NCBI RefSeq assembly: GCF_000385335.1
Contig: NZ_ARWA01000001.1
Location: 3,736,001-3,800,000 of the forward strand
Source of the DNA: Methyloferula stellata AR4
GTDB taxonomy: Bacteria > Pseudomonadota > Alphaproteobacteria > Rhizobiales > Beijerinckiaceae
Reading direction: 5' to 3'
Length of the DNA stretch: 64,000 bases
A program made the position numbers and the translations under genes. Positions 10,865-53,374 of this stretch are shown here, in pieces (position 1 is the first letter of the stretch; every line of letters begins with the position of its first letter). Below the pieces are notes generated by a model. The model was given only the letters and a program-made list of their open reading frames with translations, was not told the origin of the DNA and did not search any database.

Positions 10865-13800
10865 TTGCGTGAAAGCTTAACCGTACTTGCCGGCTTACTC
10901 ATTCTCTGCCTCAGCATCGCTTTGGCGGCACCATATTTCGTCGATTGGAACGCGCAGCGCGGCTTGATCGAAACCAAGCTCTCGCAGGCCCTCGGCGAAA
11001 AAGTGACTATTCGCGGCAATCTCGATCTGAAGCTCCTGCCGACGCCCTATCTGCATCTCCAAAAGATCGAAATTTTGGATGAGGCCGCCTCGGCGAGTTT
11101 CACGGCCGACGATGTCCTGCTCGAAATCGCCATCCCGCCGCTTCTGCGCGGCGAGGTCGATTTCATCGAGGCACGGGTGAAAAGCCCGCGTCTGAAGCTG
11201 ATCCAAGGCACGGACGGCACGCTGAAGGCGCCGCAACCGGGAGGCTTTTCGGGGCAAGCCCGTTTCGAGCGGATCGCCATAGAAGACGGCAGAATCGAAA
11301 TCGAAGATCCGGCGCAAGCCAATACATTGGTTCTGGATCATCTCGATCTCAGCGCCGAAGCAAACTCGCTGGCCGGGCCATTCAAGGGCGATGGAAGCGG
11401 GATGGTCCTCGGCGAGAAAACCGGCTTCCGCTTTTCGACCGGCCAGCGCGAAGGCGACAGCCTGCGGCTGAAACTCGTCGTCGACAAAAGCAAGACGCAT
11501 CCGCGCGCCGATTTCGACGGCACGCTCACGTTCGAACATCGCAGGAACGGCCGCCTCGCGGCCTCCTTCGCCGGCAATGCCGGATTCTCCGGCCTTTGGC
11601 GCGGCGCCTCCGAGACAAGCGACATTGCCATCCCCTGGCATCTCAGCGGTCCTCTTCGCATAGCAGAGCGCAAGGCCACGATGGACACGCTCGATCTGCG
11701 TCTCGGCGACGAAGACCATGGCGTGAATACGGCCGGCACGGCCGAACTCGATTTCGCGACAACGCCCAAAGCCAGCGTCAATCTCCGCGCCAAACAGATC
11801 GATATAGACCGCCTGTTGGCCGATCCGGCAAAGCCGCAAACCCCCGAGACTCTCGAACAAAGCCTCACGGGTTTGATGAATGAATCGCGTCTTTCGACCT
11901 TCCCCATCCCATTGACCTTGGACGCCACCGTCGAGACGGCGACGGTGAACGGCGAAACGCTTGCCGATCTCTCCGGCGCATTGGTCCTCAATCAGAACCA
12001 GCCGGTCTGGGTGCGCTTTGAAACGAGCCTGCCCGGCCGTTCGCACGTCCATCTCGATGGACGTCTTGAAGCGGGCGCCGCGATGCAGTTCGACGGCCGG
12101 ATCGAGGCTGGCTTCGGCGATTTCGGGCGCGTGAATGCATGGCTCGCGGGCGTGCTGCCGCATTGGGCCGAAGAAACACGCAAGCTGCCATTTCGCACGC
12201 TCGAAGTCAGCGGCGAAGCGAGCCTGTCGCGCGTCGGCTTTTCCGGCCGCGGCCTCAGCCTGCACCTCGACCGCTCGAACCTCACCGGCAATCTGTCCTA
12301 TACGCAGGCGGTCGGTTCGGAGCCCGCGCGTTTCTTCGTCGATATGAGCGCGCCCTCGCTCGATCTCGACGGCTGGCCCGATCTGAAAGATGCCGCTCAT
12401 CTCGTTGAGGCAACCGATCTCGCGATCCGCTTCGATGCGCATGCCGTGAAACTCGGCGGCCTTCGCAAGGGCACGGTCGATACCGGCGAGATCCGGCTGA
12501 AACTGACCAAGACAGGCGCCAATACAAATCTCGAAGAGCTGAGCTTGAACGGCGTCGGCGGCGCCAACGTCAACGCCAAAGGCCAATGGAACGGACAGAG
12601 CGGCGGTCTCGATGCCAAGCTCAATGCGCCACGGCTTGCCGATCTGACGGCCTTCCTGCAGCGTGTGGTTCCGAGCGCCGCGCTCGACATGGTGGCCGAG
12701 CGCGCAACGGCCTTGTCGCCGATCCAGCTCGATCTCCACGCAGAGGCGGGCAGCGCCGTGTCATCCTCGGCGCCGGCGCTGACCGCTTTGACCCTCACGG
12801 GCACGGCGGGAGCGACGCGCGTTTCGGCCAATATCAAATCCAACCCGAAGAACCCGAGTCTCGGCACCGCATCGGCGACGATCGACGCGCCTGACGGCTC
12901 AGCCCTGCTCCGCCAATTGGGCGCACAGGTCTTGCCGCTGAACGGATTGGGACACGGGCGTATCGAGATCAAGACCCAAGGGCCGCTGAGCGGCTCGCCT
13001 GATATGGCGCTGCAAGTGACATTTGCTGGCCTCAACGTCAATTTCCATGGCCGGATCGAACGGCCAACGAGCCCCGGCCAGGAAACGCTCGCGGCCAACG
13101 GCCAATTGACCGTGGCCGCGACAGATCTTTCGCCTTTCCTGCAGGCCACCGGCCTCGCTTTTCCCGATCTGACCGCACGTATCCCGGCCGATGTCGCAAC
13201 GGACATCGACTGGCGCGCGTCACGGCTCGATCTGCGTAATCTCAGGGGTACCTTCGCCGGCCGTGCGCTATCCGGGCGCCTCACTTACGCGCCCCAGGCC
13301 GGCGTGAAGAAATTGACCGGCGCGCTCGACCTCGACAAAACCTCGGCAGCGGCTCTGCTCGAATTGCCGCTCGGTCCGCCGCAACCGGCGAAAGGCGGCA
13401 CGCTCTGGTCGAACCTTTCGTTCGGATCCGGCCTGCCCGATCCACCGCCTGTAAACGTCACGCTGCGGGCGAAGACCTTCGACATTCTGCCTGGATTGTC
13501 GGGCGAAGACGCCGCCCTCCAGCTCGAAATCGCGCCGGACGTTTTTACGTTTCGCGACTTCACGATGAAGATGGGCGGCGGCATGGCGGCCGGCACCCTC
13601 ACCCTGCGCCGCGACGGCGCAACGGCGGCGGTTGCCGGACATATCAATCTTGAAAATTACGGGCTCGATCTTCCGAGCCTGCATGGCCGTGCCTCGGCCG
13701 CGCTCGATATTTCAGGCAGCGGACAAAACCCCCTCGCGCTGATGTCGAACCTTGCCGGTTCAGGACATACGAGCTTCACCGATCTGATGGTGCGGCGCGC

Positions 13801-41548: not shown

Positions 41549-42586
41549 TCAAACCTTTTTGTCCATCGAAAATAAAAATGGCGCGACATCGCGAACGCCC
41601 GGTGCGCGCGTGGTTGCAAAAGGCACGGGCCGGCAGACCGCCATGGCGGAAAGCCCCACCCGCGTCGTCAGGAGCCCGTTCAAAACGCCTTCGCCGAGCC
41701 GCGCCGAGACTTTCGCGGCAAGGCCGTGGCCAACCACCTGCTGCAACAGGCTGTCGCCCGCCGCCATGCCGCCGGTGATCGTGAGATGCGCGCCGACCGA
41801 GCGCGCGAGCTTCAGAAAACCCAGAAGCCCCGGCCGCCCGCCATAGATCTCGGCGATGCGCCGCATGAGGCGGATCGCTTGCGCAGCGACGAAAAGCACG
41901 TCGATGATGGCGCGCGGTGCGATCGTCGTGACGACCGAGACGCGCTTGGCGGCCTGCGCGATCTCGCGCTGCGCTTCACGGTCGAGCGGTTCGATCAAAG
42001 TGCGCTCCGCAATGTCGATCAGGTCGCGGCCATCGACAATGTCCTGGCTGAGTTCGGCGAGATGCGCGCGGGCCAGTGCGCTTTCCGGCCGCGTGGAATA
42101 AAGCGCCACAAGTTCCTTGATGAGCTTGCGGGCTTTGACCGTATCATCGGCTGTTCGTGCCTCGGCAAAGGCGATGTGCAATTCGGCGATGCGGCGTTGC
42201 CGCGCAATGCCGAAGAATTCGCGTCCGGCCATCACCAGAAGCGCGATCACGGCCAATGCCGCAAGGACCACCCCGATCACGCCAAAGGTCAGCGAGCGGG
42301 CGAAGAGATCATCGACGAGTTTCGTCAGCCAGAGGCCGATGGCGAGCGATGCGAGTCCGCCGACAGCCGACCAGAACAGACCGCCCCAGGAGAAAAGCGA
42401 GCGCGCGACGACGCCGCGCTTTTGCGCGACTTCGACCGCCTGCTCCTGCGGATCGGCCGAGGCCATCGCGGCCAAGGCCTCGGCCTCGTAAGGATCGGGC
42501 GTCAGCTCGATGATGGGTGCGTCCGGTGATTTCGCTGCCTCTGCCTCATCGAGACGGAACGCACGCGGTTTGCGATCGGCACTCAT
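41549..42586 (-). CDS. ycjF: YcjF/TIGR01620 inner-membrane protein
   Basis: 345 residues. Two membrane spans near 75-120 (GGLASLAIGLWLTKLVDDL, VLAALAVIALLVMAGREFFG) are followed by a large soluble domain with GRDLIDIAERTLIEPLD, IAPRAIIDVLFVAAQAIRLM and GMAAGDSLLQQVVGHGLAAK. It is the regular partner of the YcjX P-loop protein, which is encoded just upstream on this strand. The pair is stress-associated in enterobacteria; the mechanism is unknown. Confidence 0.9.
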   Translation of the reverse strand: MSADRKPRAFRLDEAEAAKSPDAPIIELTPDPYEAEALAAMASADPQEQAVEVAQKRGVVARSLFSWGGLFWSAVGGLASLAIGLWLTKLVDDLFARSLTFGVIGVVLAALAVIALLVMAGREFFGIARQRRIAELHIAFAEARTADDTVKARKLIKELVALYSTRPESALARAHLAELSQDIVDGRDLIDIAERTLIEPLDREAQREIAQAAKRVSVVTTIAPRAIIDVLFVAAQAIRLMRRIAEIYGGRPGLLGFLKLARSVGAHLTITGGMAAGDSLLQQVVGHGLAAKVSARLGEGVLNGLLTTRVGLSAMAVCRPVPFATTRAPGVRDVAPFLFSMDKKV

Positions 42587-42638
42587 CGGCGCATGGTCAA
42601 TTTGGGGTGAACCATCTGCTCCCTCTCATCCCTTTACC

Positions 42639-42682
42639 GCATGATCTCAATCCAAAAAGTCTGCAACTTTTTGGGATCATGC
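42639..42682. repeat. intergenic palindrome, GCATGATC family, between ycjX and ycjF
   Basis: GCATGATC and GATCATGC are the ends; inside, CCAAAAAGT (42652-42660) and ACTTTTTGG (42666-42674) continue the pairing. It fills the 97-bp gap between two genes that should form an operon, so it will be transcribed and could modulate ycjF expression. Confidence 0.8.
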
Positions 42683-42683
42683 T

Positions 42684-44180
42684 CTACAACCTGTCTCCGA
42701 TCAGAAATTGCAAGGCGCGATCGAGCCTTATATGCGGCAAAGGCAAGGGCGCACCCGTGCTGTCGCGAACGGCTACCGGCGGCCGGAACCGCACGAAACG
42801 ATAGTCCAATTCTTCCGGCGTCAAAACATGTCCGCTGTCGCGAAAGACGGCTTTCGGATCGGCCGGCAATTCGCCCGGAAAGATCGCCGCCTCCGCGCGG
42901 CCGTCAAAAATCTCAGTGCCGATCTTCTCACCCGCCATGGGCGTGCCGATGACGGCATCGAGCCCTTTTTCGCCGCGGCCGCCGACGCGGCCCTCGCGCG
43001 TCGCCCGCACAGACGCGAGCGCGATCACGTCGATCGCCGCGCCGACGTCTTCCGCCCGCATGATCGCGCGCGCCGTCAGATGGCGCAAAATGGCCTCCAA
43101 CCGGTCATGGCTTTCATGATGCAGATGATCGGCCTTTGTCGCAGCGAACAGGATCTTGTCGATATGCGGCCTGAACAATGTCGACAAAAACGAACGCCGG
43201 CCGGTGCGGAAAGCCATCAGCACTTCCGTCATCGCGGTTTCGAGATCGCGCACCGCCGCCGGCCCGGCGTTGAGCGCGGCCAGCGCATCGACAAGCACGA
43301 TCTGCCGGTCGAGCCGCGCGAAATGATCGCGGAAGAAGGGCCGCACCACATGCGCCTTATAGGATTCATAGCGGCGCTCCATCATGGCCGCGAAAGACCC
43401 CGGCTCATAGGTCACGCCCTCTTCCACCGCGAGCGGCGCGAAAGTCAGAGCGGGCGAACCCTCGAGATCGCCCGGCATCAAAAACCGGCCGGGCGGCAAG
43501 GTCGAAAATCCGAAATCCTCCGTCCGGCAAGCCCGCAGATAGGCGGTGAAAAGATCGGCGGCGCGGCGGGCCTTGTCTTCATCGGCGGCCGTGCCTGGCG
43601 CTTCGGCCAGCGTAAAATGCCGCCAAGCATCTGAAATTTTTTGCCGCGCGGGCGAAGCAGCCGTCTCCAAAGTTTCGCGCGACCATTGCGCGAATGACTT
43701 GCCGAGCAGCGGCAGATCGAGCAGCCATTCGCCTGGATAATCGACGATGTCGATCGTCAAGCTCCGCGGCGTCCCGCGAGACCGCACCCTTTCGAAATCG
43801 AGCCGCAGCCGCAATTCGGAAATCCGCCTTGTCGATTCCGGCCAATGGCGCGCATCGGCATCCCCACCAGGCCCCGTCAAAGCCGCCAGATGATCCTCGA
43901 AGGCAAAGCGCGGCACTTGATCGTCTGGCTGCGGTTCGAGATGGCCGCCCGTCAGCCTGCCTTCGGCAAGGACGCGAAACACCGGCAAGGGATTTTTTTT
44001 GTCCCGCAGGGTGGGGCTCGCGGCCCGAACGAGATGATGGATCAGGGCCGTCAGAAAAACCGTCTTGCCCGAGCGCGACAGGCCGGTGACGCCGAGACGC
44101 AAGCTGGGGCCGCCGACATAATCGGCGAGGCTTTGCGCCGCGATCTGCGCTTCGAATAAAAGATCGGAAAGAAAAGGCAA
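42684..44180 (-). CDS. ycjX: YcjX-family P-loop NTPase (DUF463)
   Basis: 498 residues. The Walker A loop GLSRSGKTVFLTAL lies near residues 33-46, and IDIVDYPGEWLLDLPLL is the G-domain-like second motif. KADHLHHESHDRL matches the base-recognition region and DALAALNAG the following helix. It is encoded with YcjF, its membrane partner. The start is at the ATG before FLSDLLFEAQIA. Confidence 0.93.
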   Translation of the reverse strand: MPFLSDLLFEAQIAAQSLADYVGGPSLRLGVTGLSRSGKTVFLTALIHHLVRAASPTLRDKKNPLPVFRVLAEGRLTGGHLEPQPDDQVPRFAFEDHLAALTGPGGDADARHWPESTRRISELRLRLDFERVRSRGTPRSLTIDIVDYPGEWLLDLPLLGKSFAQWSRETLETAASPARQKISDAWRHFTLAEAPGTAADEDKARRAADLFTAYLRACRTEDFGFSTLPPGRFLMPGDLEGSPALTFAPLAVEEGVTYEPGSFAAMMERRYESYKAHVVRPFFRDHFARLDRQIVLVDALAALNAGPAAVRDLETAMTEVLMAFRTGRRSFLSTLFRPHIDKILFAATKADHLHHESHDRLEAILRHLTARAIMRAEDVGAAIDVIALASVRATREGRVGGRGEKGLDAVIGTPMAGEKIGTEIFDGRAEAAIFPGELPADPKAVFRDSGHVLTPEELDYRFVRFRPPVAVRDSTGAPLPLPHIRLDRALQFLIGDRL

Positions 44181-44246: not shown

Positions 44247-45398
44247 TCATGGCTGCATGGCGGGTCCCGCCGCTTGACGGGCCTTTTCGTCATGCAGGCG
44301 GTCAGCCAAGGCCGCAATGCCCGCATCGATGAGCCGTGCCTGCACTGAAAGCGGCCCGATCTCGACACTTGCCATATTCCGCATGACCCGGGCGAGATTT
44401 GGCGTCGGCGATCCATCTTCGGCAAAAAGCCTCAGATCGTCATTGATCCCGGTCACGACGCCGTCGATCGCATGGTGCGCATAGGCCGCGATGCGCGGGC
44501 CGTCGTCGGTGCAGGAGACTATCGGCGAAGCGAGGGGCTTGCCAAAGCCGAGCGCCGTATATTCGACCGGGTTCAGTTTGATATCGCGCTCGCCCATGCC
44601 GACGGCGATTTCGGGCGCCGGCATCATGGCCGGCATATGGCTGCGCACGATCGAATGGCGCAGTACCGCCTTCGTCCGCGCAGGCCGCTGTGGCGCCGAG
44701 GCAAGCCGGAGGCTACGGCCGGCCGCATGCCCATGCAGACGCTCCTGAGGAACGCGCAGATGCTCGTGGCGAACATGCAGGCTCTCCTTTTGAGGCAGAG
44801 CCGGAGCGAAATCATGCACGGAGAGCTCGCTCAAGGAGGGAATCACCATCGCCGTGCTCGCGAGCTTCACGCGCGTCTTGGCCGGTAGAGCGAGCACCTT
44901 CGCCGGCGCGGGGAGTTTCGTCGGCATGGCAGTTTGAAGGCTGCATTGCGCGGGCGCCCAGCGCGCGATGATCGACAGAGCCGAATGACGCTTCAAATCG
45001 ACATAATAATGGCGCAACAGCAAGGCTGCGACCGCAGACCCTTCCAGCGCGGAAGCAAAGGCGACATGGCCTTCGCCGTCCGATGCTATCTCGCCATTCC
45101 AGCCGGCCTTCTTGATGCACCAATAATTATTGAGCTTGACGCATCGCGGCAGAGCGCCGCTTTCCTTGCCGATCAGGAGATGCGCGGCTGGAAGCGGCGC
45201 AAGAGCCACATTCCAAACGGCTTCCATGCGCCAATTGGAAACCGCCCGCTCGATCGGGCGAAAGCTCGGCGGTTCAGGTTTTGCGATAGCCAGAGAATAG
45301 AGCCGCATCGGCCAAGCCGGCGGGACCGGCGCCTTTTCAGCCGCGTGAAACGCGCTCATCGCGAGCGACAGATAAAGTCCGAGAAACTCCGGCAGCAT
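44247..45398 (-). CDS. conserved hypothetical protein with a cysteine-bearing N-terminal domain
   Basis: 383 residues with no membrane span. The N-terminal 140 residues contain the most conserved-looking part: GALPRCVKLNNYWCIKKAGW, then HVAFASALEGSAVAALLLRH and APAQCS. A variable Ala/Pro/His-rich middle follows (about 150-260), and a second folded region VEYTALGFGKPLASPIVSC runs to the end. Its role is not known. It sits between SixA and YcjX on the same strand, 66-67 bp from each. Confidence 0.65.
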   Translation of the reverse strand: MLPEFLGLYLSLAMSAFHAAEKAPVPPAWPMRLYSLAIAKPEPPSFRPIERAVSNWRMEAVWNVALAPLPAAHLLIGKESGALPRCVKLNNYWCIKKAGWNGEIASDGEGHVAFASALEGSAVAALLLRHYYVDLKRHSALSIIARWAPAQCSLQTAMPTKLPAPAKVLALPAKTRVKLASTAMVIPSLSELSVHDFAPALPQKESLHVRHEHLRVPQERLHGHAAGRSLRLASAPQRPARTKAVLRHSIVRSHMPAMMPAPEIAVGMGERDIKLNPVEYTALGFGKPLASPIVSCTDDGPRIAAYAHHAIDGVVTGINDDLRLFAEDGSPTPNLARVMRNMASVEIGPLSVQARLIDAGIAALADRLHDEKARQAAGPAMQP

Positions 45399-46462: not shown

Positions 46463-49063
46463 TCAAGCTGCGGATGTCGCCACGCGCTTTTCGCCGACCG
46501 GCAGAAGCACGGCATAAAAGGCCGGCAGAGCGAGAAGATAGGCACCAGCCGCGACGAAGAGCACGGACGAGAGACCGAAGGCCGTCGCAACCAAGGGGAC
46601 GGCGGCGGCGCCGACCACCGAAAAACATCCGTTGATGCCCCAGGCCCATAAGAACATATGGTCCTTGCCGAGCCGCGCCAACGTGTCCATGGCCGTCGGC
46701 ATGGGAAAGCCCATTAGAAAAGCCGGCGGTGCGATGAGGCCGAAGCATAAGAGAAGCCGCAGCCCATAGGGATATTGGCCGATCCAATCGAGTGGAAAGT
46801 GCAGCCATAGTCCATAGGCGATGAGGAAAGCCGCTATGCCTATAAAAATCCTCGGCATGAAAATCTTCGAGCGGTCGAGATAGCGCTCCGAGGCGAGGCT
46901 GCCGAGCCCGGAGAAAATCAACATGCCCGTGATCATCACGGAGGCCGAGACCGTCGCATTGCTCAAGGCCAAAACGAATTCGGCGATGAGGCCGACTTCG
47001 ACCATGATATAGCCCGCGCCAAGACAGGCGAAATAAAGGATCGTGCGCAATTTGCCGGGATAGCGCGAAAAGATCGTGCGCCAGCCGAAGATGACAGGGA
47101 TCAGCACCAAGGTCGAAGCCAGCGCGACGGCGACCAAGAGCGTCGCCCATAAAAGCAGATAGCCCCATTCGTCCTGCACGAGTTCGAGCCGGTCGAGAAT
47201 TTTCGGCAGATCGAACGGCTTGATATAGGCGGCGAAATAAGGCCGGTTATTGGTCAGCGGGCGCGCGTCGAACACATATTGACTGGCGATCTCCGGCCAG
47301 CCGCCATGGATCAGATAATGCCAGGTCAGACGGCCCATCAGCGTTGAGGGCAGAACCGATGATTCAGGAGCCGCCGCTTCGATCTCGGGCTCGGCCCCAG
47401 GCTGGATATCGACCGTGCCGGGCGCTGTGTCGGCCTCGAAGAACACCTGGTTCTTATAGCCGTCGAGAACCGATCGCGTCTGCGCCGGGTCGAAGACGAA
47501 GCCCGGATAATAGATTTCGTCAAACGACATGGCGCGCGTATGAGCGCGCAATTTGGCGATCTCTTCATCGGTGAAACCGCCCTTCTTATAAAGTACGGTC
47601 GCTGTCGAGAGATAGCTTGAGACGACGAAGAAATCCTGGGCGATGTCGGGCTCGCCATTCTGCTTGGCTGCTTCCGCCATGGTCGCATAAAGCTTGATGA
47701 TCGATTTCGGCGGCTCTTCCTTGTTCCAGAGCGTGACCGAGAGAATGCCGCCCGGCGCGAGAGCCCGCATATAGTTCTGCATTGATTCCCGCGCGTAGGA
47801 AAATTTCTCGACGACGGAGAAACCGCCGGGGCTCGACAGGCCGGCAGAATCGGCAAGGCTCAGATCGATGACATCGAAACGCCGCGGCGTATGGGCGAGA
47901 AAGAGCCGTCCGTCATAATCGACGACATCGAGCCGCGGATTGGCGAGAATGTCGCCTGTAAAAGCCTTCAGCGTGGGATCGTTACGAAACGCCGCGAGCA
48001 CCGCGGGATTGCCTTCTGCAACCGTGACATGTCTCGACCGGTCGAGCGCGATCGAGGTCGAAAGGCCGCCGCCGAATTGCACGACGAAAGTCTGCGGCTG
48101 ATCCTTCACCACATAGGGATAGATCATCGGCAAGAAGCGATAATAATCCGTTTGATCCTTAGGCAGATCGCGGATGATGCCCGACGGCCCCTCGCCGTCG
48201 ATATAAAGGCCTAAATAGGCATTGGCCGGCATGTCCTTCAGATTGAAGGCGGCATTGTCCGAAAGGCCCGGCGCGAAATGAAGATAGGAACTTCCATAGA
48301 CTTCGAGATAGCCGAAGGGCGTGTCGCGTTCATAGACGCGCTGCGAATCCGGGAATTTCCGCGCATAGGCGACGCCCTTATAATCGGAGACCGCGAGTTT
48401 CGCGACGTTGAGCCAGAGCGGCACGGTGAAATGCGCAGCCAAGGTCAGCGCCGCGACAACGCCCAATAAAACCGTCACCTGCTTTTTGGCATAGGCAAAA
48501 AAGAAGGCGAGGCTGCCGAGCAGCCAAAGGATCAGCGGCGCGACGATCAGGTCCTGCGGCGCGAAGACATACATGGCAAGCAGGAAGATCAGGCCGCCGA
48601 AGCCGGCGCCCGCGAGATCGGCGAAATAGACGCGATTGAAGGTCTTCGCCTGCTGCAGAAAAACCGTTCCGAGAAAAGTGGCGCCTGCGAGAAAGGGCAG
48701 AAGATAGAGAAGGAAATTGGCGAGCAGCCGCCATTTCTGCGCCGGGTCGGACACCAGAAAAATCGCGTTGAACGGAACCTGCTGGGCCAAAAGATTGGAG
48801 GCAACCGCAAGCGGCCCGAATAAAAGCAGCGAGGCCGTAATGACTCCCAGTGCGTGGCGCTCGAACCAATTTTTTGCCACGCACATGATGGCGCTCGTCA
48901 GGCCGAAGCCGAGCATGGCGAGGCTGACGACGAAAGAGCCGAAATGCGCCCAGGAACCGATCGCAAAGATCCGCATGATGCAGATCTGCAGCGCGATCAC
49001 CGCGCCGGCGACGAGGCCGACGGCAATGTAGAGAGGCGCATTCGTCCGGGCTTGTGCGGTCAC
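46463..49063 (-). CDS. polytopic spermidine-synthase-like protein
   Basis: 866 residues from a GTG that overlaps the methyltransferase stop (GTGA). About seven membrane segments (1-230), a central soluble Rossmann-like domain (about 270-580) with FVVQFGGGLSTSIAL and VAEGNPAVLAAF as the nucleotide-binding strand and acidic residue, and about six further spans at the C-terminus. The central domain resembles polyamine synthases, but the catalytic Asp motif of spermidine synthase is not obvious (DVIDLSLADSAGL is the nearest). Membrane-embedded polyamine aminopropyltransferase-like proteins have no settled function. Confidence 0.75.
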   Translation of the reverse strand: MTAQARTNAPLYIAVGLVAGAVIALQICIMRIFAIGSWAHFGSFVVSLAMLGFGLTSAIMCVAKNWFERHALGVITASLLLFGPLAVASNLLAQQVPFNAIFLVSDPAQKWRLLANFLLYLLPFLAGATFLGTVFLQQAKTFNRVYFADLAGAGFGGLIFLLAMYVFAPQDLIVAPLILWLLGSLAFFFAYAKKQVTVLLGVVAALTLAAHFTVPLWLNVAKLAVSDYKGVAYARKFPDSQRVYERDTPFGYLEVYGSSYLHFAPGLSDNAAFNLKDMPANAYLGLYIDGEGPSGIIRDLPKDQTDYYRFLPMIYPYVVKDQPQTFVVQFGGGLSTSIALDRSRHVTVAEGNPAVLAAFRNDPTLKAFTGDILANPRLDVVDYDGRLFLAHTPRRFDVIDLSLADSAGLSSPGGFSVVEKFSYARESMQNYMRALAPGGILSVTLWNKEEPPKSIIKLYATMAEAAKQNGEPDIAQDFFVVSSYLSTATVLYKKGGFTDEEIAKLRAHTRAMSFDEIYYPGFVFDPAQTRSVLDGYKNQVFFEADTAPGTVDIQPGAEPEIEAAAPESSVLPSTLMGRLTWHYLIHGGWPEIASQYVFDARPLTNNRPYFAAYIKPFDLPKILDRLELVQDEWGYLLLWATLLVAVALASTLVLIPVIFGWRTIFSRYPGKLRTILYFACLGAGYIMVEVGLIAEFVLALSNATVSASVMITGMLIFSGLGSLASERYLDRSKIFMPRIFIGIAAFLIAYGLWLHFPLDWIGQYPYGLRLLLCFGLIAPPAFLMGFPMPTAMDTLARLGKDHMFLWAWGINGCFSVVGAAAVPLVATAFGLSSVLFVAAGAYLLALPAFYAVLLPVGEKRVATSAA

Positions 49064-49929
49064 TTGTTATGCGTGCCAGAAATCGCGTCGCCTTCAAGCT
49101 TGGTGAAAGGCACGAAGGGCACGACGCGGCCATTGTAAATGTCCGAGCGCGCGACATTGATGGTGCCGTCAGCCGCCTGTTCCTTGACGATCTTCAAAAG
49201 CCGCTGAGCACCGGGCGGACCGACGGGGATCACCATGATGCCGCCCGGCTTCAATTGCTGCAGCAAAGGCGGCGGCACGTGATCGATGCCGCAGGTTACG
49301 ATGATCTTGTCGAAAGGCGCGTTTTCTTCCCAGCCATAATATCCGTCGGCATTCTTGCTGGTGATCGACTTATATTCGGTATAGCCGCGCCCGATCAGCG
49401 CGTCATAGACGCCGCGCGTGCGCTCGGCGAGCGGCTTGATGATCTCGATCGTCCAGACCTTGTCGGTGAGATTGGCGAGATAGGCCGATTGATAGCCGGA
49501 GCCTGTGCCGATCTCCAAAACCTTGTCGCCCATCTTGACGTCGATCGTGCTCGTCATGCGCGCGACGACATGCGGGCCGGAGATCGTGACACCATAGCCG
49601 ATATCGAGAAAGGCGTGGTCATAGGCGCGGCCCAAGTTCTGCTTGAGAACAAAGTCCTCGCGCGGCACGAGCAGAAAGGCGCGATCGTCGCGCTTGTCCC
49701 AAACGTCTTTATTGGCGACGAGGACACGGTAGCGGTCGAAACGCTCGCCAAGATATTTCGGATCCTCGCCGCGGTTCTTCACGCCCCAGGCAATGAAGGC
49801 CTCTCGATTGTCCATCGGCGGCGTGAGATCCCAATTATAGGGGACGGGCACATCGGCGAAAGCGCGCGCGGCAAAGCCGGCTTCGGCCAAAACGGCGGCT
49901 GACGAGATCAGAAAATGGCGCCGATTCAA
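49060..49929 (-). CDS. exported protein-L-isoaspartate O-methyltransferase-like protein
   Basis: 289 residues from a TTG at 49929, with GGAGGGG 6-12 bases upstream; the reading from 50028 begins with non-coding-looking sequence. The start NRRHFLISSAAVLAEAG is a twin-arginine signal (RR-x-F-L), ending near ARAFA. The SAM-binding motif VLEIGTGSGYQSAYLA and GGIMVIPVGPPGAQ are typical of PCMT. A secreted PCMT-type methyltransferase is uncommon because SAM is cytoplasmic. It is translationally coupled to the downstream spermidine-synthase-like gene. Confidence 0.85.
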   Translation of the reverse strand: MNRRHFLISSAAVLAEAGFAARAFADVPVPYNWDLTPPMDNREAFIAWGVKNRGEDPKYLGERFDRYRVLVANKDVWDKRDDRAFLLVPREDFVLKQNLGRAYDHAFLDIGYGVTISGPHVVARMTSTIDVKMGDKVLEIGTGSGYQSAYLANLTDKVWTIEIIKPLAERTRGVYDALIGRGYTEYKSITSKNADGYYGWEENAPFDKIIVTCGIDHVPPPLLQQLKPGGIMVIPVGPPGAQRLLKIVKEQAADGTINVARSDIYNGRVVPFVPFTKLEGDAISGTHNK

Positions 49930-50221: not shown

Positions 50222-53200
50222 TCATGCCTTCAACAAAGCTTCCGTCTTTATGTCCATATCAGCGAGAAGACTTTTTCGAGCCGTGTCCGTTGTCGCCGCA
50301 TGCGCTTGGCGGCATAATTCTATGACCTTGCGATGGCCGACGTTCTTGGGGTCAAAGCGTGGAATGCTGAGATGCTTAAAAATATTACTGACCTGAATTT
50401 GGATCGTGTGGCTCTCGACATATTCACGAACCAACGCAGAATTTAAAATCCCGCACACAAAATAGGCTGTGTCCGCATCAGTAAAGTCAGCAAAAAAGAC
50501 CTTATGGTCTGGCACATAAGGGCGCTTGCCATTTAACGGCATCTTTGTGTTTTCGACGACAACGGCTTCAAACGTCGATGACTGTTCCGCCCACATCACT
50601 TTATAGGGGGCAAAAGTGTAAGCCCCTGAATTGTAAACGACATAGTATGGAGCCGTTGGTTGGCGCTGTTTATAGGTTGCTCGGGTGCTAAGTTTGGTCT
50701 TAAAGGCCTTGAAGTATTTCTCTGTCAATTTCAGCGTGGCCATCTTGGCCATAGCGCTCGCATAGTCCGCTTGCTGGATTCCTTTGTTCGGAATGAACAT
50801 GTAGAGATCGTCCTCGATGTGCAAGTGGCATGCGGAAAAGTCGCCAGCTCCCTTTATCAAGGGATATAAAAAATCCGGCTCGACCCAAAATTTGCGAGCT
50901 GGGCCAATATCGGTTCTCCCCGCTTCTGGACGTGTCTCAATTTGAAAAAGATTCTGCGCTTTATCCGTGTCAACGATGCGCACCATATAGACGCCATTCA
51001 AGTCAGTGGTAACGCCTTTACGGCCCGCGATCCAATCGCTTCGGCCTTGGATCTTGGCCATGTCCTTGAACCGGCCTTTCGGCAAAACCGCCCAAGGCGA
51101 ATTTCCTCCTTCGACCGGTATTGCCTCCCAATTTTTAATGGCCACACGCTTTTCAACATCGTTTTTTAGCAATGATTCAGGGATAACCGCACTAGCTGAT
51201 CCTGCTTTCTCCCATATTCGATAGGGGATCGGGTAACTCGGCTTCTTGGTGGCGGCAACCTTTTGCAAGCGCATGATTGCCGACCTATTTGCCACTTTAG
51301 CGAACGGCTTAAGCTTCCTAAGGTCATCAACTTCAACCGGAATAAAGCTGGCATTCTTGGTGATCGAAAAGCTACGGAAACCTTGGGACGACGGCGACTG
51401 AAAATGTGTTTGTGTAATGACGAATACAAGCGTTCCGCCGTCCTTCAGCCACTTGTCTCCGACCGTGTAAGTTATCATGCCGGAGATATCGAGTTCATTG
51501 CCACCATGGAAAGGCGTTTCAGAAAAGATCGCGTATTGCTCGCACGTAGGCTTAATGCGGTCGCGATATATTTCTGGAAGATTTGACCAACGAACCCATG
51601 GCGGATTGCCGATAATCAAATCAAACTGTCCCGCAACGGCAGACCAAAAAAAGTTTCTTACAATTCGAAACCATATCCCGTTCCAGGCCTGCTGATGCAG
51701 CACAAGGACTTGGCCATAGGTTTCAGCAAGCGCGTCACGCCATTTCTCCGCTTCGATCGCCGTGATTATGTTTTTGGCGATCAGAACCCTTTCGACAAGC
51801 TCATACGGCGCCTGATCTTCAACAGAGTCACCCATTACTAAGAACGCATCATCAAGGCGCGAACGGTCGAAAGCCAAGGTCGCGGGCAAAACCACTAAAA
51901 GGTCTGATTGCGAGCTACCGATGCGATATTTCACATCACCGTTGTGATCCTCCGGCACATGCGCCGGAGAGTACACAGCATCCGCCAAAAGGATGGGCAG
52001 CTCAATTTCGATCTTCGCCGCTGCAACGAGGTCGGCGATTGCGATAAGAAAATTGACCCGCGACGCCTGTACCGCGAGCGGATTCAAATCGAATCCCCAG
52101 ACATTGGCGAGGATATTTGCGAGAGTCGCTTTCGCATCTAGTTTCGCGGCTTCTGCCGCTTTTCTTTTCCGACGAATGGCCTCTAGCAAAAAAGACCCGG
52201 AGCCGCATGTTGGATCGAGCACTCGTATAGAAAACCAGTCTTTGACCGAGGCACGATCACACGCCACATCGACGAGCCAATCCGGCGTATAAAACTCTCC
52301 AAGTGCCTTGCGAAGAACCTCAGGTATCAGCGACTGATAGAAGGCTTTCAAGACATCTCGTGAGCGCGCCGCGTTCAGGTCATCCATTCTGTATAATGAA
52401 AGCTGCGTAAGGAGTCCGCGTATGCCGCTACAAATCGCTCTGCGACCGCTGGCCGATAGCGACGCATCTGCGTACCAAGAAAATACAGCCTCCTCCACAA
52501 ATCCCTTTATTCGCGCCCCTTCAAAATAGGCGCTTCTTTCCACTTCTCTATCGAGCGATCTGAGAAGTTCATCGTCTTCGTAACCGAGTAAGTGTTCGCA
52601 AAAGTCCGGGTGAGCTGTGAGCTTATATTCCGCCACGATCTCGGCAGCGAGCAACTTCATCAAAAACGCGTTATAGGTGTGAATTGTAAAAAGCAGGGCG
52701 GCGACCGCGTCATTGTTCGGCAAATCTGCCATCATAGGTATCTGCCGTTGGATGGCGGTGGCTTGTGCAGCCGATAAATCCGCTACCTGGCCGAACAAAG
52801 TCCGCCATTCCTCAAAAAGCATTTTAATTTTGTTGTTTCCGCCCGCTTTAACGTGCGCCGCCAGCTCCGCGCTAAGCACCTGCATCATGCCGTGGCCGAT
52901 TTCCGCCTCATGACCGAAATCCTCGACAAGATTATCGGCGGTAACAGCGCGGCGTTTAGAGTCGGCGCAGGCTTGGGCGACGAGAGAAATAGACGCTGCG
53001 TTAAACGGAAGCAAATTTCTGGCGACGATCTGGCCGTCCTTGTAAAAGGCGAAGCATATATGATCGCCGTCTGTCGCTATACCAATATAGTCCTCAGGGG
53101 CAAGCCCTTCTTCTTTCGCCCGCCGTGGAATGTATTTATGAAGCCTGTCATAAATCGCTTCCCTGAAAGCTGGGCTCGCCGTGCTGCCCCTGAATAGTCC

Positions 53201-53374
53201 CTTGTCCTTAAATTCAATAATCACTTGGTTGTAAGACGCATCGTTCCGTCCGCGCTCAGCATGGAACGCTATCCCGAGTTCGTTCTCGATGTGCTTTAAC
53301 CAGCTCTTACGAACCTCTTCTTCGTTCGCCCAATTGTGGCTGTCTTTTTTTAGTTTGGTGAAGAGGGGCGACAC
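50222..53374 (-). CDS. fused restriction-modification enzyme, type IIG/Eco57I-like
   Basis: 1050 residues. The N-terminus has a PD-(D/E)xK-like nuclease core: D45 and E54-F-K56. After a helical region comes an N6-adenine methyltransferase: GEFYTP (359-364), motif I DPTCGSGSF (387-395), motif IV NPPW (590-593). A target-recognition-like domain fills the C-terminal half. One polypeptide thus carries both activities, as in type IIG enzymes. No specificity subunit or other defence gene is adjacent. The codon use and composition are AT-richer than the neighbours, which suggests acquisition. Confidence 0.82.
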   Translation of the reverse strand: MSPLFTKLKKDSHNWANEEEVRKSWLKHIENELGIAFHAERGRNDASYNQVIIEFKDKGLFRGSTASPAFREAIYDRLHKYIPRRAKEEGLAPEDYIGIATDGDHICFAFYKDGQIVARNLLPFNAASISLVAQACADSKRRAVTADNLVEDFGHEAEIGHGMMQVLSAELAAHVKAGGNNKIKMLFEEWRTLFGQVADLSAAQATAIQRQIPMMADLPNNDAVAALLFTIHTYNAFLMKLLAAEIVAEYKLTAHPDFCEHLLGYEDDELLRSLDREVERSAYFEGARIKGFVEEAVFSWYADASLSASGRRAICSGIRGLLTQLSLYRMDDLNAARSRDVLKAFYQSLIPEVLRKALGEFYTPDWLVDVACDRASVKDWFSIRVLDPTCGSGSFLLEAIRRKRKAAEAAKLDAKATLANILANVWGFDLNPLAVQASRVNFLIAIADLVAAAKIEIELPILLADAVYSPAHVPEDHNGDVKYRIGSSQSDLLVVLPATLAFDRSRLDDAFLVMGDSVEDQAPYELVERVLIAKNIITAIEAEKWRDALAETYGQVLVLHQQAWNGIWFRIVRNFFWSAVAGQFDLIIGNPPWVRWSNLPEIYRDRIKPTCEQYAIFSETPFHGGNELDISGMITYTVGDKWLKDGGTLVFVITQTHFQSPSSQGFRSFSITKNASFIPVEVDDLRKLKPFAKVANRSAIMRLQKVAATKKPSYPIPYRIWEKAGSASAVIPESLLKNDVEKRVAIKNWEAIPVEGGNSPWAVLPKGRFKDMAKIQGRSDWIAGRKGVTTDLNGVYMVRIVDTDKAQNLFQIETRPEAGRTDIGPARKFWVEPDFLYPLIKGAGDFSACHLHIEDDLYMFIPNKGIQQADYASAMAKMATLKLTEKYFKAFKTKLSTRATYKQRQPTAPYYVVYNSGAYTFAPYKVMWAEQSSTFEAVVVENTKMPLNGKRPYVPDHKVFFADFTDADTAYFVCGILNSALVREYVESHTIQIQVSNIFKHLSIPRFDPKNVGHRKVIELCRQAHAATTDTARKSLLADMDIKTEALLKA

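Follow-up and report, generated by a model that had tools for sequence, protein, structure and literature searches.

The window, the whole 64,000-nucleotide stretch of the Methyloferula stellata AR4 genome (a single contig of 4.24 Mb) that was analysed, carries two overlapping open reading frames on the minus strand, which an earlier sequence-only reading had correctly located and proposed as a pair. The first (P0002, positions 49060..49929) encodes a 289-residue, putatively exported methyltransferase of the PIMT type (PF01135), with a TTG start at 49929 and GGAGG ahead of it. A twin-arginine (Tat) signal peptide, NRRHFLISSAAVLAEAGFAARAFA, occupies 49853..49929 on the same strand, with cleavage likely after AFA at about residue 25. 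The second gene (P0001, 46463..49063) encodes an 866-residue membrane protein, here termed TM-SpeE, comprising seven transmembrane (TM) helices, a domain with the fold of spermidine synthase (SpeE) and a further seven helices. The two genes share the four bases GTGA (49060..49063, minus strand), in which the GTG start of TM-SpeE overlaps the TGA stop of the PIMT. The overlap had been noticed before and is indeed present, but it is confined to the window's genus; elsewhere the two genes are separated by gaps of about 20–330 bases. Conserved translational coupling through the GTGA was rejected on this ground. Upstream of the PIMT gene, a 1050-residue open reading frame (50222–53374) has, as read from its sequence, an NPPW motif like that of N6-adenine methylases of the restriction type.

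The methyltransferase matched PF01135 with an E value of 1.3e-43 (149.7 bits against a curated cut-off of 20.3), its best scores being with PIMT models. Its nearest solved relatives are PIMTs, with 4o29 the best (E 4.1e-34). Scores fell below the cut-offs of both housekeeping equivalogs (150.0 vs 159.05 bits for TIGR00080; 168.2 vs 188 bits for NF001453), and by these profiles the protein is classed as a member of the PF01135 family and not as the housekeeping equivalog. It shares with PIMT/Pcm the whole core, the SAM motifs, T-I-S and the C-terminal F-V-P. The SAM-site residues E139, G141, G143, E162, D195 and G196 are invariant in 44/44 exported homologs, covering motif I (E-x-G-x-G), the ribose Glu and the adenine Asp. 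Elements of the isoaspartyl site, T-I-S-x-P and F-V-P, are also kept (T115, S117 and P119 each in 42/44; F272 and P274 each in 44/44). Unlike PIMT/Pcm, the window protein is predicted to be exported, has a longer N-terminal region and has a membrane partner tied to it. Its clade also reads V-T-I-S-G-P against Q-T-I-S-Q-P, with G118 in place of Q/A; PIMTs of a distant clade retain the canonical GQTISQP motif.

Export of the PIMT was next considered. Its N-terminus reads L/M-NRRHFLISSAAVLAEAGFAARAFA with D directly after the AFA cleavage-type site, and thus combines a twin-arginine motif (NRRHFLIS...AFA), a hydrophobic stretch and an A-x-A site. Together with the PF01135 match, these features bear out the earlier description of a PCMT-type enzyme with a Tat signal. 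The RR pair is invariant across seven close orthologs. Wherever the ortholog N-terminus is complete (73 sequences), an export-type signal is present, as called by pattern and eye (63 Tat with RR, 6 Sec-like and 4 with a single Arg). In the distant clade (~30% identical) the signals are of the Sec type, with Tat-lipoprotein forms bearing a lipobox-like cysteine in two cases. Unlinked PIMTs of pair-carrying genomes mostly lack an export signal, as does the housekeeping PIMT of the window genome. In a maximum-likelihood tree a single branch separated all 44 exported PIMTs from 20 PIMTs of the same genomes that lack a signal (support 98/96; branch present in 98% of bootstrap trees). The non-exported set was drawn from eleven genomes, and wider sampling could change this picture. 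Judged by the predicted signals, export is a conserved property of the PIMT clade although the route changes (Tat, Sec or Tat-lipoprotein). For a Phyllobacterium PIMT (L129:5306–5947), the deposited start falls within the gene and an in-frame Sec-type signal precedes it; annotation in databases can thus conceal export.

The architecture of TM-SpeE was examined with an AlphaFold2 model built on a 34-sequence alignment (mean pLDDT 83.7). Helices 1–7 form an N-terminal block (residues ~11–216, 48416..49033), followed by the SpeE-fold domain (residues ~217–632, 47168..48415) and a C-terminal block of helices 8–14 (residues ~633–853, 46505..47167), all on the minus strand. The 50 best PDB matches listed by Foldseek were all spermidine or polyamine synthases, led by 4yuy (E 5.4e-07). 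Model and Foldseek matches agree with the layout described by the sequence-only reading, a synthase-like domain between two membrane blocks. Counts of K+R in short loops averaged 16.3 inside against 1.6 outside across the family, and 11.7 against 1.2 in its distant members, for which they point to the same topology. By the positive-inside rule, these counts and the 14 predicted helices place both termini inside and the central domain outside, consistent with a periplasmic location. A cytoplasmic active site as in SpeE is accordingly not predicted, since loop charge puts the domain on the other side. The earlier reading had set only the PIMT outside; its placement of the PIMT agrees with the conserved signal, but the TM-SpeE central domain is predicted to be periplasmic as well.

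The central domain keeps the fold, GGG loop, ribose-type Glu and decarboxylated-SAM-site Tyr of spermidine synthase. Residues of the nucleoside site are strongly conserved (G333 and Y307 in 28/28, E350 in 27/28, D/E384 in 26/28), as is a near-invariant Asp, D405 (26/28). TM-SpeE departs from SpeE in its 14 TM helices, the predicted periplasmic domain and the loss of the aminopropyltransferase motif D-x-x-D: both Asp residues occur together in 0/28 members. D405 can be aligned in two registers, and neither restores the motif. Sequence matches were weak (Spermine_synth PF01564, 15.7 bits against a cut-off of 22.9; NF002956 (PRK03612), 24.9 against 472; NF002010, 16 against 260). Because D-x-x-D is lost and the curated cut-offs are missed by far, TM-SpeE is probably not a polyamine synthase; the activity suggested by its first label, polyamine-synthase-like, is not supported, and polyamine synthesis was rejected as the lead reading. 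The domain could instead bind a nucleoside without transferring aminopropyl groups, with the membrane body as a carrier. Within the C-terminal block, intramembrane E689, W808, N811 and S815 are invariant across the family, and E689 and N811 would suit a transport or transfer path. TM-SpeE resembles PRK03612-type and other multi-TM SpeE-fold proteins in joining TM helices to a SpeE-fold domain, and has layout and loop-charge topology in common with two such proteins (L028 and L029). It differs from the PRK03612 type in its NF002956 score and in being paired with an exported PIMT.

Linkage of the two genes had been named beforehand as one of two points on which the pair would stand or fall, and it holds; on the other, export by the signal, the sequences indicate conservation. 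Every ortholog in close relatives is paired. Across species genomes of bacteria and archaea, a search yielded 80 TM-SpeE loci (Beijerinckiaceae, Reyranella, Rudaea, Burkholderiales and others); five are cut by a contig end, and a PIMT lies directly upstream in 74 of the remaining 75. The single exception (L111) has an rpsM-like gene in the PIMT position. Separate searches of an order-level sample found PIMT and TM-SpeE in the same 9/298 genomes (hypergeometric p 2e-17, relatedness ignored). Phylum-wide, TM-SpeE was present in 23/349 genomes, and when ~30%-identical relatives are included a PIMT with an export signal adjoins it in 21/23 loci; two of these 21 are Tat-lipoprotein forms located downstream of TM-SpeE. 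In the genomes of the two unpaired loci, a PIMT with a Sec signal is encoded at another site. Plasmid records added ~30%-identical TM-SpeE proteins in Phyllobacterium, Microvirga, Paraburkholderia and Sinorhizobium, and in every case a PIMT gene lies upstream. Going by these homologs, the pair recurs in a ~30%-identical clade across Pseudomonadota, and linkage is far beyond chance. Comparative sequence data support both the location outside the cytoplasm and the coupling well.

Departures from this arrangement were also seen. The two genes are divergently oriented in Rhizobium jaguaris, and exported PIMTs occur without an adjacent TM-SpeE in two Bradyrhizobium-like genomes and on one Mesorhizobium plasmid. 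Conversely, TM-SpeE relatives without an adjacent PIMT are found at L111 and L028–L030. Adjacency is thus not strictly needed. The Tat-PIMT of the Mesorhizobium plasmid (L131:6995–7873) lies in a transposase-rich stretch. In one genome the pair is accompanied by another Tat-PIMT copy nearby, oriented the opposite way (L120:9483–10358 and 11186–12241).

A gene for a putatively exported alpha/beta-hydrolase was present in 69/74 loci with enough downstream sequence, usually following the pair; at one locus counted among the 69 (L102) it lies upstream of the PIMT. The modelled hydrolase (pLDDT 92.4) has a feruloyl-esterase-like, CE1-type fold (match to 1gkl, E 4.1e-08), in which the Ser-Asp-His triad S200, D226 and H295 is invariant in 32 sequences; the Ser lies in S-G-G-Y, and a His-Gly is invariant too. 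Unlike CE1-type hydrolases, it gave no match in Pfam and NCBIfam profile searches and often stands after the PIMT/TM-SpeE pair. It was found in 10/10 pair-positive genomes tested and, in the order sample, in 9/9 pair-positive against 23/289 pair-negative genomes (Fisher p 6e-10, relatedness ignored). Its presence in those 23 weakens the case for a strict third member, and by distribution it is a frequent companion of the pair. A search of the 64-kb window for this gene gave no match better than E 3.5, and the open reading frame at 44247–45398 was rejected as a candidate for want of a family match. In the window genome the hydrolase gene is unlinked to the pair (L117, G000:C1:964411–965319), out of view of a reading that had proposed a two-gene module; the pair stands, often with this third member. 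There, by eye, the gene overlaps the end of a gene with an alanyl-tRNA synthetase-like start. In three genomes without the pair (L118, L119 and L123) it adjoins, again by eye, an APC-type-permease-like gene. A YcjX-like gene occurs near the pair in the window (41549–44180) and, in another genome, close to the hydrolase gene (L128:4096–5586), possibly by coincidence.

We favour, at somewhat less than even confidence, an extracytoplasmic carboxyl-methylation module in which TM-SpeE handles SAM or SAH rather than making polyamines. Periplasmic methylation of carboxylates is likely. The PIMT, exported here by Tat, would work in the periplasm, where its most likely substrates would be isoaspartyl or other damaged or free carboxylates of envelope proteins. 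TM-SpeE, as dedicated partner, would serve the PIMT by binding SAM (or SAH), moving it or passing it on, and the serine-hydrolase-type third member could act on methyl esters or a related ester. The site of methylation, the substrate, SAM delivery and the part of the hydrolase are all inferred. That TM-SpeE would handle SAM/SAH rather than make polyamines is suggested by the retention of nucleoside-binding residues together with the loss of the aminopropyl-transfer motif. Neither a pool of SAM in the periplasm nor an exporter of SAM is known to us from free-living proteobacteria, and a literature search for periplasmic PIMT, periplasmic SAM or a SAM exporter found nothing on point. The sequence-only reading had pointed out this cofactor problem for an exported PIMT coupled to a membrane SpeE-fold protein. 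Both the coupling and the problem stand, but the two SAM-fold domains are predicted to lie outside and would share it. SAM handling by TM-SpeE is the most economical answer, although we put this clearly below an even chance. A narrower proposal is that TM-SpeE loads a periplasmic methyltransferase as a dedicated carrier of SAM (or SAM/SAH), which would make this the first extracytoplasmic system of SAM-dependent protein repair in free-living bacteria; on balance we consider it unlikely.

Other explanations were weighed against this module. Exported PIMT and TM-SpeE may be successive enzymes that, outside the cytoplasm, modify or assemble a secreted molecule (lipid, glycan or peptide), with TM-SpeE as a catalyst instead of a cofactor handler and the hydrolase trimming the product. 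The three-gene neighbourhood, the nucleoside-type site with D405, and the use of PIMT-like enzymes by the peptide-maturation families TIGR04364 and TIGR04188 (weak matches here) fit this account. Against it stand the absence, across lineages, of recurring biosynthetic genes beyond the three, PIMT scores that are highest for PIMT models, and the canonical GQTISQP of the distant clade. A cofactor source would still be required, and we regard successive enzymes as an unlikely if serious contender. A more restricted enzymatic role, TM-SpeE as a periplasm-facing aminopropyltransferase that makes or modifies envelope polyamines, draws on the SpeE fold, the retained Y307, GGG and E350, and the weak PRK03612 and Spermine_synth matches. 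It runs against the absence of D-x-x-D from every member in any loop alignment, scores under the curated cut-offs of 472 and 22.9 bits, and the cytoplasmic origin of decarboxylated SAM, and appears very improbable.

The exported PIMT fold may instead serve as a SAM-free binder or chaperone of isoaspartyl envelope proteins, or each molecule may carry out a single SAM through Tat. Proteins pass through Tat in the folded state and can take a bound cofactor with them, and such roles suit the lack of known periplasmic SAM. The invariant SAM site counts against these roles, as do the Sec-type signals: Sec chains are exported unfolded and cannot carry SAM, so the Sec-type export of several lineages argues, from general knowledge, against a folded PIMT bringing it along. 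Either role seems improbable. Least probable of all, in our judgement, is a Tat-like N-terminus that does not export, with a cytoplasmic PIMT linked to TM-SpeE through some other joint function. The signal calls do rest on pattern and eye, but they extend to every complete N-terminus by differing routes, include lipobox-bearing Tat-lipoprotein forms in distant relatives, and are mostly lacking in unlinked PIMTs of the same genomes.

Isoaspartyl damage should also accumulate in long-lived envelope proteins. PIMT repair is generally regarded as a cytoplasmic process, since SAM is not known to exist in the periplasm. Given a PIMT clade that is monophyletic, conserved in export and equipped with a membrane partner of its own, the presence of periplasmic SAM and the route by which it gets there become directly testable. 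The pair also gives a function-linked handle on multi-TM SpeE-fold proteins, found here without a curated family.
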